This document shows, one piece after another, positions 32,258 to 60,654 of a DNA stretch of 64,000 bases; the stretch's first letter is position 1, and each line of letters opens with the position of its first letter. The stretch covers positions 744,001-808,000 of the forward strand of contig JARFXP010000001.1 in the NCBI GenBank assembly GCA_029194675.1, read 5' to 3'. Position numbers and translations under genes: made by a program. The stretch is from Nitrospira sp. GTDB lineage: Bacteria; Nitrospirota; Nitrospiria; Nitrospirales; Nitrospiraceae. The notes under the pieces are model-generated. The model searched no databases. It saw only the letters and a list, made by a program, of their open reading frames with translations, and was not told where the DNA came from.

Positions 32258-32914
32258 ATGAATACCAAACCTTCCATCTTGCTGGCCGATGATCATGTCC
32301 TTGTCGCCCAGGGCATTCAAAAACTGTTGGAACCGGAATTCGAACTGCAGAGGATTGTTCCGGACGGCCGCGCGTTGCTCAAAGCCGTCGAAGAATGTCA
32401 GCCGGACGTGGTCATCGTCGATATTTCTCTCCCGCTGCTCAACGGATTGGATGCATCCCGTCAAATTTTGAAGCACCACCCCGCCGTCAAAGTCCTTATC
32501 CTGACGATGCACTCGGAGCAAAACTTCGTGACGGAAGCGCTCCGTATAGGAGTATCGGGCTATGTGTTGAAGCAGTCGGTCGGATCGGAATTGGTGCAGG
32601 CGCTCAAAGAAGTCTTGAACGGCAAGACGTTCGTTTCTCCGATCGTCGCCGACCGGGGGAAACATTCTCAGGCCGATGAGGACACTGAAGAAGCACCCGA
32701 AGGAGGATTTGCTCACACGCTCAGTTTACGACAGCGGGAAGTGCTGCAGCTCGTGGCCGAAGGGAAATCCATCAAAGAAGTGGCGGCCGTCCTGAACCTC
32801 TCGATCAAGACCGTCGAGTTTCACAAGACACGGATTATGAGGCAGCTCGGCATACGGTCGGCGGCTCAGCTGACGAAGTATGCAATCACGAACGGACTCA
32901 TCGCCCTTCACTAG
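32258..32914 (+). CDS. NarL/FixJ-type response regulator
   Basis: 218 aa. Receiver domain with the acidic pair in LADDHV, phospho-acceptor Asp in IVDISLP and switch Lys in YVLKQS. C-terminal LuxR-type helix-turn-helix (LSLRQREVLQLVAEGKSIKE ... KTVEFHKTRIMRQLG). GAGAAGGAG precedes the ATG. No kinase gene is adjacent. It faces a paralogous regulator convergently 28 bp away, and the two share the same architecture, so they may derive from a duplication or serve related kinases. Confidence 0.92.
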   Translation: MNTKPSILLADDHVLVAQGIQKLLEPEFELQRIVPDGRALLKAVEECQPDVVIVDISLPLLNGLDASRQILKHHPAVKVLILTMHSEQNFVTEALRIGVSGYVLKQSVGSELVQALKEVLNGKTFVSPIVADRGKHSQADEDTEEAPEGGFAHTLSLRQREVLQLVAEGKSIKEVAAVLNLSIKTVEFHKTRIMRQLGIRSAAQLTKYAITNGLIALH

Positions 32915-32942: not shown

Positions 32943-33584
32943 TCACAAGGCTGTCATGCCTGAAGCGAGCGCAACGCGAATCAAATCGGACGTGGTACGA
33001 ACACCGAGCTTGCGGGTAATATTGCCTTTGTGGAATTCCACGGTCTTCATCGAAATGTTGAGTTCTTTGGCGATATCCTTGGTGGAAGTCCCGTCGGCAA
33101 GCATCGCAAGGATTTGCCGCTGTCGGTCGGTCAAGTTCGTCGTATAGCCTTCCGGTCGCGACCATTGACATTCCATCGCTTCACGAACTTCCACGTCAAG
33201 TTTGAAAGACACAAATCTTCGATTCGCCATGACGCTCTTGACCGCGGCATGGAGTTCGTCCGAGGCATCTTGCTTTAACACATAGCCCATGGCTCCCGCA
33301 CGGAATCCCTCACTGACTGCAACAGCTTCGGTCAGCATCGTAAGAAAGATAATTCTAACCGTGGGCAAGATGTTTTTGAGTTGTCGAGCCGCTTCAAATC
33401 CGTTCATCCCCGGCATGTTGGCGTCAAGCAGCACGATATCCGGCTGCAACTTCTCGGCTTGCTCCAGCACTTGTTGCCCGGTCTGTGCGGTCCCTACCAC
33501 CGAAAAGTCCGGCTCGAGTAATTGCTTCACGCTCTCTAAAACTAACGGGTGATCGTCGGCAAGCAAAATTCTAACGCTAGACAT
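32943..33584 (-). CDS. NarL/FixJ-type response regulator
   Basis: 213 aa from the ATG at 33584, chosen because AAGGGAG stands 5-6 bases upstream; an in-frame start at 33629 lacks a site. Receiver domain with LADDHP, phospho-acceptor in LLDANMPG and switch Lys in YVLKQD. LuxR-type DNA-binding domain at the C terminus (LTDRQRQILAMLADGTSTKD ... KTVEFHKGNITRKLG). It should act as a phosphorylation-dependent transcription regulator. It faces a paralogue convergently and no kinase is adjacent. Confidence 0.92.
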   Translation of the reverse strand: MSSVRILLADDHPLVLESVKQLLEPDFSVVGTAQTGQQVLEQAEKLQPDIVLLDANMPGMNGFEAARQLKNILPTVRIIFLTMLTEAVAVSEGFRAGAMGYVLKQDASDELHAAVKSVMANRRFVSFKLDVEVREAMECQWSRPEGYTTNLTDRQRQILAMLADGTSTKDIAKELNISMKTVEFHKGNITRKLGVRTTSDLIRVALASGMTAL

Positions 33585-33894
33585 GACACTCCCTTTGCAT
33601 GATACGGCCAACCTGTTTCCGCTCAACATCGCGTTCTAATGGTAGGTCTAAACTTCAAACACCTCTATCAATTATGGCAGCCGCTTCCGAAGAATCCGAC
33701 TAGAGGTATCCCTAGCATTTCCGGGGGCACGACATTGGGTTACCGCAGAACGCCAGACAGCGCAGCGCGTTGAACTGCGTTGAGGCCGAGGCCGGCCTGG
33801 CCGTTACGGAAGCTTCCGAAGGTCACGGAGGCTATCATTGCGTGACTCCGGCTAACGGGCGCTCCCCGCACGCCGACCAGGCCGAGCGGGTACG
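33585..33894. other. intergenic, about 310 bp, no gene seen
   Basis: Between the minus-strand regulator and the end of the Rh channel gene. It holds GC-rich imperfect palindromes around 33780-33830 (CCGAGGCCGGCCTGGCC and GGAAGCTTCC) that could slow or end transcription from the Rh gene. There is no T-run, so a terminator is not proven. Confidence 0.35.
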
Positions 33895-35202
33895 TCATGC
33901 GATCGGTCTCGGCTCCTCTCGCGCGGAAGGCGGAATGTGCATCCCTGTGCGGGCAAGCAGTTCCTTTTGCAAGGCTTCGATATCCGCCTTTGCGCCTAAC
34001 GCGAGCTCCTCAACCTTGCGTTCACTCTCAGGCCCCGGCACATGGGAAAACTCATGGCTGTCTTCATACGCCAGTTCTGTCGTGCCTGTGGCTCTGATCA
34101 CCATGCCGGCAATCACCCCACCGACAACGGCAATGACAAGCGTCATCGCAATGCCCACGAGTTGGACGCCGACAACACTCGGAACGACGACGATCGCAGT
34201 GAGTCCGCCTAGGAGCCCCGGCATCCCATGCAGATTGTGCACGCCACAGGTATCGATCAGTTTGATTTTCGATTCCAGGATGGGCTGAATAAAGACGAAC
34301 CCGATCACCGAGAGCGCACCGGCAAGCAATCCGATACCAAACGCACCAGTGGGACTCACGAGATTACAGGTCGAGCCGATGGAGACCCCACCCGCCAACG
34401 CCGCATTGGCCATATCCACCATCGAGGTTTTTCCATGATGAAAATGTGTGCTGAGAAAATAGGTGGCAAGCGTGGCCCCGCTGAGAGCAAGAACCGTATT
34501 CACGATGGTTTGGGGCATTTGCTCGAACGGCACAATCGCGGTGGCAAAACTCGGCCAAAACAGCCACAGGACCATGGAACCGAGCATCGCGAACCGATCA
34601 GACGTCGGATCGGATTCGATCGGTTGACTACGTTGCTCCGCAGTCGTCAGAACCAGCGACGCGGCCAATCCGAAATAAGCCCCGAACGCATGGATGATGA
34701 TCGAACCTGCCGAGTCCTGAAACCCTTTCGTGAGCCCCGAGCCATTGTCCAACACCAAGTATTCGTTCAGCGCATAGAGTGGTATTAATACCAGCGTGAG
34801 TAACGCGTATTGAAACACGCGTAATCTCCCGAGCACCGCTCCCATCGCGATCAGCGCCGTCGCCACCGAAAATTCGGCCAGCATCAGCGTCTCGACCGAA
34901 TGGGCCTGTATCGCATGCCCCACCATCCCGTTGGCGCGCAAAAATATGTAGAGGGGCAATCCGGTTGCGACGAGGAGATAGGTACCGGTCGTTGCCCCGA
35001 AGCCATACCGTCGGACGAACACCATGAGAAATCCGAAGCCGACCAACAACATGGCCAGGATGTGAATCGAGTAATTGTATTGTGCGACCAAGCGTGCCTC
35101 ATTGACGGCACCCGCCGGTTCTTCGGCACCGACCCAACTCGTGACGCACAAGAGAAACAGACTTGCTGCGCTGAGCATCTTCACCCAGAAGCTGTTCTGC
35201 AT
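33895..35202 (-). CDS. Rh-type ammonium channel
   Basis: 435 aa from the ATG at 35202 (AAGGAGGA 4 bases upstream; a start at 35268 is less likely). A cleavable signal peptide ends near VGA-EE. Then eleven or so membrane helices. The Rh family rather than Amt is indicated by the paired signatures SAGSIIIHAFGAYFGLAAS and DTCGVHNLHGMPGLLGGL, which carry the pore and twin-His regions. The C-terminal cytoplasmic tail of about 60 residues is charged. It conducts ammonia/ammonium and perhaps CO2. In nitrifiers, Rh channels are known from betaproteobacterial ammonia oxidisers and comammox Nitrospira, while most nitrite-oxidising Nitrospira carry Amt. Confidence 0.92.
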   Translation of the reverse strand: MQNSFWVKMLSAASLFLLCVTSWVGAEEPAGAVNEARLVAQYNYSIHILAMLLVGFGFLMVFVRRYGFGATTGTYLLVATGLPLYIFLRANGMVGHAIQAHSVETLMLAEFSVATALIAMGAVLGRLRVFQYALLTLVLIPLYALNEYLVLDNGSGLTKGFQDSAGSIIIHAFGAYFGLAASLVLTTAEQRSQPIESDPTSDRFAMLGSMVLWLFWPSFATAIVPFEQMPQTIVNTVLALSGATLATYFLSTHFHHGKTSMVDMANAALAGGVSIGSTCNLVSPTGAFGIGLLAGALSVIGFVFIQPILESKIKLIDTCGVHNLHGMPGLLGGLTAIVVVPSVVGVQLVGIAMTLVIAVVGGVIAGMVIRATGTTELAYEDSHEFSHVPGPESERKVEELALGAKADIEALQKELLARTGMHIPPSAREEPRPIA

Positions 35203-35743
35203 TGAGTCCTCCTTGGACAGTAGGAGTGAATGGGGGGCTATAGGGGTGGCAGTGTACTCCACTAGCAAGCGCCCTTGTCAAACCCCACCTAAGGCTTACT
35301 CACAGGGGCAGCAACTAAAATAGTAGCCTCAATCAGTCGGCAGGAAACTAGAGAACAACCACGAAGTAAGCGATAAACCAAACAAAGTACCGGTTTCAGA
35401 GCTGAACGCTGTGGCGTGCAAGCAACGGGTCAAACGGGTCAGTGGCCAGTGTGTAATTCGTCATTACGGAAGGCAGGTAGTCGCTTGTCCCATAGTGGGG
35501 CGCGTCCGGTAACGCTCGTACACCGTAAACTACCACCGTCCAAACCGTTCACCGCGTCTTCTGTTCAACCACACCAGATCGACGCCGTCCCACCCCACTT
35601 CAATCGCCTTCTTCGCCGCACCATTTATTTACGGCCCGCTAGACAGCAGACCTTCACTGAGTATAATGGCATTCAGTTCGTACGTACGATCGGACTTCTG
35701 GCAGCGCCTGAACCTGCGCAGACAACTCAGTAAAGGATCATTC
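35203..35743. other. intergenic between the Rh channel and thiD, about 540 bp
   Basis: This divergent gap should hold promoters for both genes. One good sigma-70 promoter for thiD is listed separately. A minus-strand stretch near 35540-35625 reads AIEVGWDGVDLVWLN and could be debris of a gene, but it has no start and is not assigned. No RNA motif is seen. Confidence 0.35.
35640..35667 (+). promoter_or_regulatory. sigma-70-type promoter upstream of thiD
   Basis: TAGACA at 35640-35645, a 16-base spacer and a perfect TATAAT at 35662-35667. It lies 77 bp ahead of the thiD start. There is no TPP riboswitch here, in contrast to thiC. Confidence 0.5.
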
Positions 35744-36544
35744 ATGTCGAATACGTTGAAACAGGTGCTCACAATTGCCGGCTCGGATTCAGGCGGAGGC
35801 GCAGGTATCCAGGCGGACATCAAAGCCATGTCCGCCAACGGTGTCTTCGCCATGTCCGTCATCACGGCCATCACGGCTCAGAACACCGAGGAAGTGACGG
35901 ATGTCTTCGAATTACCTCCGGCCATCATTGCGTCGCAACTCGATGCAGTCTTCGACGATTTCGACGTTGCGGCGGTGAAGACCGGAATGCTGTCCTCGGC
36001 AGCCATCGTCGAGGTGATCGTGAAGATGTTGAAACCTCAAAATGTCGTGAATCTGGTTGTGGACCCCGTGATGATCTCCAAGAGCGGTCATTCCCTCTTG
36101 CGGCCGGACGCCATCGAGGCCGTCAAGACGAAGTTGCTCCCGCTTGCCTTGGTCGTGACGCCGAACGTGCATGAGGCCCAACAGCTTTCAGGGATTGAAA
36201 TCGCCTCGTTGGCCGACGCTCGACGAGCAGCCAAAGTGATTCATGGCTTCGGATGCAGGCATGTCCTGATCAAAGGCGGACATCTGCTCAATGAGCGGGC
36301 GACCGATCTGCTCTATGACGGACGATTTTTCAACGTCTTGAAGGGAGAGTTCATCGAGACCCGCCATACTCATGGCACCGGCTGTACGTTCGCCTCAGCA
36401 TTGGCGGCTCATCTTGCACGAGGGCGATCCGTTTTGGATTCCGCGCAAGCCGCCAAATCCTACGTGACGGAAGCGATCCGGCATGGATTGGCCATCGGCC
36501 ATGGACAAGGCCCGACAGATCATTTTTATTTCCTGGAGCGATAA
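35744..36544 (+). CDS. thiD: hydroxymethylpyrimidine/phosphomethylpyrimidine kinase
   Basis: 266 aa from the ATG at 35744 (AAAGGATC upstream); the frame stays open to 35666. [20 protein letters not shown] is the classical HMP kinase N terminus. [14 protein letters not shown] and [20 protein letters not shown] (anion hole and catalytic Asp region, here Gly-Thr-Gly-Cys) complete the ribokinase-type active site. It phosphorylates HMP and HMP-P for thiamine pyrophosphate synthesis and works with thiC and thi4 at 58-61 kb. Confidence 0.93.
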
Positions 36545-58370: not shown

Positions 58371-58539
58371 AATACTCCTCCAAACGTAAGGGAATTGATT
58401 CTACGATAGGCCCCTTCCACAATCAACGGATCGCCAATCGAGGAAAAGCCCTAGTCACCCGCCCAAAGGAGAAGAAGTGGAATAGGCCTAATAGCCGATT
58501 GACTTCGGTATCTCGAAAGAATACGATTGTCCTCTATAG

Positions 58540-58622
58540 CTAGGGGAGCCTTGAGGCTGAGAGTCCGATTGATCGGACGACCCTCACAACCTGACCTGGA
58601 TAATACCAGCGTAGGGAAGCCG
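58540..58622 (+). promoter_or_regulatory. TPP riboswitch (THI element) upstream of thiC
   Basis: The sequence has GGGGAGCC, GGCTGAGAG, a stem with GTCCGATTGATCGGAC, GACCCTC, AACCTGACCTGGATAATACC and AGCGTAGGGAAG, the conserved elements in the right order and spacing. The divergent nadA gene is 170 bp away. Binding of thiamine pyrophosphate should favour the terminator that follows. Confidence 0.95.
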
Positions 58623-58649
58623 GGCGACATCGGATCTTGTGAGGAATTC

Positions 58650-58737: not shown

Positions 58738-60654
<1,917 letters not shown>

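Follow-up and report, generated by a model that had tools for sequence, protein, structure and literature searches.

Does a single Rh-type ammonia channel gene identify the Nitrospira that carries it as a complete ammonia oxidizer (comammox), and what would such a channel do there? The question is raised by a gene in a 64,000-nucleotide stretch of contig JARFXP010000001.1 from a Nitrospira sp. assembly (GCA_029194675.1); this whole stretch is the DNA that was analysed and is referred to below as the window. With a probability of roughly 93%, the best explanation overall is that the gene encodes an Rh50 protein in a clade A comammox Nitrospira, where it replaces AmtB after loss of the amtB locus and a probable horizontal gain of Rh.

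The gene lies at positions 33895..35202 on the minus strand, and its translation is an unbroken reading frame of 435 amino acids plus stop. The reading frame opens further upstream at a TTG; the ATG start is credible because a ribosome-binding site read from the sequence, AAGGAGG (35208..35214, minus strand), sits 5 nt ahead of it, and the N terminus of the protein resembles a signal peptide by eye. The protein scores 183 bits against Pfam PF00909, the Amt/Mep/Rh superfamily (gathering score 23.2), and 113 bits against the NCBIfam amt model, under the cut-off of 343. Its best solved relatives are the three Rh50 entries 3b9w, 3bhs, and 3b9y (633–635 bits), which we take to be Nitrosomonas europaea Rh50, followed by the Rh type A and C entries (219–220 bits), Rh(CE) (84 bits), and the Amt entries (27–42 bits). 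The alignment with 3b9w reaches 635 bits over residues 31–415, and the two proteins share the same motifs, His pair, and Asp. The Nitrosomonas europaea origin of the three entries fits a citation in PMC6311188. Judged by its sequence, the gene is an ordinary Rh50-type channel that is nearer to Rh than to Amt, and with these scores and both motifs present, the initial annotation of an Rh-type rather than an Amt-type channel stands.

That annotation had also considered two motifs as Rh-specific: GAYFGL (residues 174–179; 34666..34683, minus strand), which lies shortly after the conserved His171, and CGVHNLHGMPG (residues 319–329; 34216..34248, minus strand), which includes His322 and His325. Alignment rows were obtained for the window protein and 110 further Rh loci, one of which (L086) is a second entry of the window gene, and loci L087–L115 largely duplicate genomes among L004–L083. 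The exact GAYFGL string is found in 110 of these 111 rows and the exact CGVHNLHGMPG string in 106, the remaining rows deviating by one letter at allowed places; these counts are partly circular, as the reading frames were selected by either one or the other of two similar motifs. His171, His325, and Asp163 are invariant in all 111 rows, with some genomes entered twice. The twin His and the preceding Asp are pore residues of the Rh50 type. Neither motif is present in any of the seven Nitrospiraceae Amt reading frames checked, which were selected by Amt-like motifs and read GG(A/T)VVH and VG(I/V)HG(V/I)GG instead (an eighth locus, L212, yielded no row). The specificity against Amt was thus borne out, but an Rh protein of another Nitrospiraceae genus (G005), 50% identical to that of the window, reads GALFGL and CGVTNLHGWPG; at the sequence level, the exact strings are a mark of the nitrifier Rh50 group and not of every Rh.

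The suggestion that the channel hints at comammox was examined in the rest of the source assembly, which comprises 5.2 Mb in 16 contigs (completeness, 99.2%; contamination, 1.1%), with the window in contig C1. The genome contains amoA, amoB, and amoC together with a cluster resembling hao, c554, and cM552 genes, and the initial guess of a comammox organism is supported; a lack of amo and hao, which would have spoken against it, is not observed. One copy of amoA is full (contig C4) and another is cut by a contig edge (C5:6-173); contig C5 begins with the end of this amoA, then amoB follows, and reading frames resembling octahaem HAO, haoB, c554, and cM552 are located after amoB on the opposite strand, together with others resembling cytochrome c biogenesis genes, the haoB and biogenesis readings being made by position and by eye only. 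Matches to amoC number seven, at six places: four are near full length, two are parts of a single gene that spans two frames, and the seventh is truncated at a contig edge (C8:2-472). AmoA, AmoB, and AmoC all exceed their NCBIfam cut-offs. The HAO-like protein has eight CXXCH motifs and scores 456 bits against the Pfam Multi-haem_cyto model, although no NCBIfam model is above cut-off for it (the best, hydrazine dehydrogenase, reaches 135 of 900); CycA is above its cut-off (419 of 400), and a NapC/NirT-like partner is present. The Rh gene is the sole PF00909 match of the genome, and no Amt was detected in the 5.2 Mb by the PF00909 search at E <= 0.001. In a tree of AmoB, the protein falls on the clade A side, separated from six clade-B-type rows with a support of 100; clade labels here rest on AmoB identity and the literature. 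The ammonia-oxidation genes and the AmoB tree support assignment of the genome to clade A comammox Nitrospira.

It is very improbable that the organism is instead a canonical nitrite oxidizer whose ammonia-oxidation genes derive from a co-binned comammox strain. Contig edges do cut one copy of amoA and one of amoC, and the amoC of the copy on C4 is split over two frames, as co-binning might produce; however, completeness is high and contamination low in few contigs, the amoCA genes on C4 are far from either end of a 475 kb contig, and their order, amoC-amoA-ftsH, is shared with G057, G115 (a single contig), and G116 (two contigs). Furthermore, the Rh gene is inside contig C1 in a genome in which no Amt was found, and in the one-contig relative G115, Rh is joined to amoA, amoB, and haoA in a single contig.

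The second amoC-amoA copy, followed by a gene for an FtsH-type protease, is an observation in its own right, being present in four clade A genomes: the source genome (G000:C4, locus L085: 10233-15576, minus strand), G115 (L128), G116 (L129), and G057 (L130). In the source genome and G115, it is followed by an uncharacterised 228-residue reading frame, similar to reading frames near the main amo cluster and possibly amoD/E-like, and by a further amoC; a singleton amoC on C1 (G000:C1:1790268-1790999, L123) is also followed by an ftsH. An ftsH adjoining amo genes was not found in the open-licence literature searched, and the protease might serve quality control of AMO. The split amoC of the source genome (G000:C4:299876-300551; L085: 14850-15576) is whole in G115, G116, and G057; in the source it has either been damaged or been misassembled.

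How well Rh marks comammox was surveyed in 175 Nitrospiraceae genomes, which were searched with the Rh protein, amoA (PF02461), PF00909, AmoB, and HaoA (E <= 1e-50 for haoA and E <= 0.001 for the others). The genus of the window, g1, is represented by 79 genomes including the source, and 53 of them have Rh at an identity of at least 78%, fragments included. A comammox marker (amoA, amoB, or haoA) is present in all 53, although in G106 and G110 it consists solely of a haoA fragment of 114–133 residues. The use of amoA alone as the marker was rejected: it occurs in 39/53, and the other 14 would look exceptional, yet each has amoB or haoA, and the likely cause is that amo contigs were lost in binning. 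Rh is found in none of the 16 marker-free genomes of the genus, 14 of which have an Amt-level PF00909 match. A Fisher test of this association was set aside because it takes no account of kinship between genomes, and an estimate of joint incompleteness serves only as an indication. A single transporter gene read from raw sequence thus rightly pointed to a comammox genome, as the corresponding rule gives 53 true and no false calls among the 79 genomes and misses 10 of the 63 that bear a marker. The mark is nevertheless inexact. Ten marker-bearing genomes (G071, G079, G082, G090, and G096–G101) are without Rh, and comammox therefore does not depend on it; nine of them have no PF00909 match at E <= 10 among candidates passing the first stage of the search, and the tenth, G071, has a broken PF00909 fragment. 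For G079 (80% complete), the absence of Rh may reflect a missing contig. In another genus, g17, a marker is present in 18 of 32 genomes and this Rh in none; the near-full-length AmoB matches of this genus are 59–62% identical to that of the source genome, on which basis it was taken as clade B. The initial notion of Rh as a sign of comammox hence stands for clade A and fails for comammox in general.

Several genomes depart from this pattern in individual ways. G072 (54% complete, g1) has both Rh and Amt. G005, which belongs to another Nitrospiraceae genus, has the aforementioned 50%-identical Rh (G005:C146, L132) and an Amt without a comammox marker; its Rh is possibly contamination, as the contig is 8 kb long. 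One stop is present within the aligned stretch in seven Rh matches (G064, G081, G093, G102, G113, G118, and G125), which may reflect either a shortened C terminus or damage to the gene. G082 is a very small comammox genome of 2.0 Mb (99% complete) with no match to Amt, Rh, or glnD.

The initial annotation had called for the position of the protein in a tree with betaproteobacterial and comammox Rh50. A quick tree without bootstrap was built from 80 named loci and the window protein, with G005 as the outgroup, and revealed one Nitrospira Rh group beside the Rh proteins of betaproteobacterial ammonia oxidizers (AOB): a branch with an SH-aLRT of 99 separates the 42 Nitrospira rows from the 39 AOB proteins. 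Locus L030, with a protein approximately 89% identical to that of the window, was counted as Nitrospira despite its Nitrosospira title. The window protein is sister to those of WA-bin32 and LK70 (support, 92), and no difference of kind was seen between it and the other clade A comammox Rh50 proteins (WA-bin32, LK70, S1bin.12, and others), with identities of up to 96% (WA-bin32). The protein of N. europaea ATCC 25978 (L058) is 72% identical to it in the best segment, and Rh-type channels of clade A comammox are reported to be approximately 76% identical to those of beta-AOB, with Amt in canonical and clade B Nitrospira (PMC6311188). The close relationship to beta-AOB would probably be explained by horizontal transfer into clade A after its earliest branch had split off, although this quick tree, with its very long outgroup branch of 8.9 changes per column, would allow transfer in either direction.

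The beta-AOB loci differ from the window in host phylum and in gene neighbourhood. A divergently oriented neighbour of Rh encoding a thiD-like phosphomethylpyrimidine kinase (35744..36544, plus strand) recurs at 28 of the 41 Rh loci from Nitrospira, some of which are shortened by contig ends, and two genes for LuxR-type response regulators, one adjoining Rh (32943..33629, minus strand) and the other beyond (32258..32914, plus strand), each recur in 9/41; none of the three is found in the 39 AOB loci. None of the tested window reading frames neighbouring Rh has a match near Rh in the 39 AOB loci, where only Rh-overlapping frames match; if Rh was transferred, it accordingly came without these neighbours. 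The thiD gene was also considered as a syntenic anchor for sites of Rh loss and was matched in 14 of 18 genomes, yet it cannot indicate an empty site because it is on a different contig from Rh in the Rh-bearing genomes G081, G076, and G102 and approximately 36 kb away in G060. Elsewhere in the window, a TPP riboswitch (58532-58634; 73 bits) precedes a long reading frame at 58738-60651.

In canonical and clade B Nitrospira, AmtB belongs to the same Pfam family, PF00909, as the window protein but has other motifs and is 24–32% identical to it among the matches listed. In the six genomes examined, amtB adjoins glnD, within about 0.4–0.6 kb and on the same strand (canonical G054, G119, and G121; clade-B-type G133, G139, and G151), and glnB was read out between the two in G119 only. 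The relevant comparison within clade A is provided by G071, which has no Rh and retains glnB (PF00543) and glnD (TIGR01693, above cut-off); ahead of these genes, all that remains is an apparent amtB start and a stretch covering the final third of the family profile, interrupted by stops and a frame change. The AmoB tree, with 61 rows including one of two amoB copies of G096, places G071 as the first branch of clade A, ahead of 54 further rows (support, 93; unstarred). GlnD was searched in 22 genomes with the G071 protein as the single query and a strict threshold (E <= 1e-60), and matches were obtained in seven: G071, three canonical, and three clade-B-type genomes. This query and threshold detected no GlnD in the remaining 15 clade A genomes, including the source and the single-contig genomes G053 and G115. 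Rh is present in 12 of them, and the other three (G082, G097, and G098) are without both, so that loss of glnD is not tied to having Rh.

These observations suggest that loss of the amtB-glnB-glnD locus from the clade A lineage roughly coincided with the Rh gain and that several later clade A lineages then lost Rh as well. A different history, in which the ancestor of all clade A gained Rh once, independently of the loss of the amtB-glnB-glnD locus, and Rh was lost wherever it is now absent, is rather unlikely but has evidence of its own. Of the ten comammox genomes without Rh, nine fall among Rh bearers in the AmoB tree, where G082 is sister to the Rh-bearing G081, apart from the group in which G090 and G096–G101 surround G102 and which probably corresponds to a published one; the tree takes five changes with clade B left out, the starred branches force at least four as tabulated, and G082, G097, and G098 indicate that glnD loss exists without Rh. 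By contrast, the first branch, G071, lacks Rh and keeps glnB-glnD with a decayed amtB, which suits a later gain of Rh, this evidence being one genome whose position is the aforementioned unstarred one.

Under the later gain of Rh, the switch of channel may have been accompanied by loss of PII-uridylylation control, as the gene content suggests. A more extended proposal is that Rh50 replaced a whole PII-controlled uptake module, amtB having decayed first (the relic in G071) and glnD having then been lost, such that ammonia uptake would now escape PII/uridylyl control or, in some of the lineages, proceed without any Amt/Rh channel; we consider the chances of this proposal to be even. If it is true, a major group of nitrifiers would lack GlnD-based sensing of nitrogen status. 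Should glnD indeed prove absent, the exchange of one ammonium channel for another between the clades was at the same time a change in nitrogen regulation, which would bear on why clades A and B differ in ammonium-rich versus ammonium-poor places. The Rh gene, the comammox inference, and the distribution of Rh agree with published knowledge, and the finding is an ordinary one in these respects; PMC12903955 already raises the possibility that Rh50 was gained as amtB was lost and describes amtB-bearing deep-sea clade A members. The glnD pattern was not found in the open-licence papers searched, in which GlnD is named once, in the figure legend of one paper, and the absence of glnD in clade A is a modest, testable extension beyond print.

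With respect to function, Rh50 would let ammonia cross the inner membrane of clade A comammox Nitrospira and take the place that AmtB has in canonical and clade B Nitrospira. AMO is thought to draw ammonia from the periplasmic side. The role of Rh50 is most likely in nitrogen assimilation and in the balance of ammonia and pH. A channel used chiefly for ammonia export or pH control, rather than for nitrogen import, appears improbable. Such a role would suit an ammonia-oxidizing lifestyle, where export or balance could matter, and Rh proteins are considered to conduct uncharged NH3; in addition, the nine comammox genomes of the genus without a PF00909 match imply that assimilation does not strictly require an Amt/Rh channel. 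In the source genome, however, Rh is the only PF00909 gene found, and assimilation presumably uses it.

Finally, PF14711 was tried as a stand-in for NXR and dropped as evidence of nitrite oxidation, since its match proved to be the NarH of a narGHJI-like operon for a cytoplasmic nitrate reductase (G000:C2, locus L218: 8229-14940, minus strand). NarH scores 865 bits against a cut-off of 524, and NarG, NarJ, and NarI were assigned by size and order only. According to PMC12342949, this operon occurs in only a few Nitrospirales genomes, and it is reported for LK70 in PMC7078480; LK70 is also a sister row of the window protein in the Rh tree.
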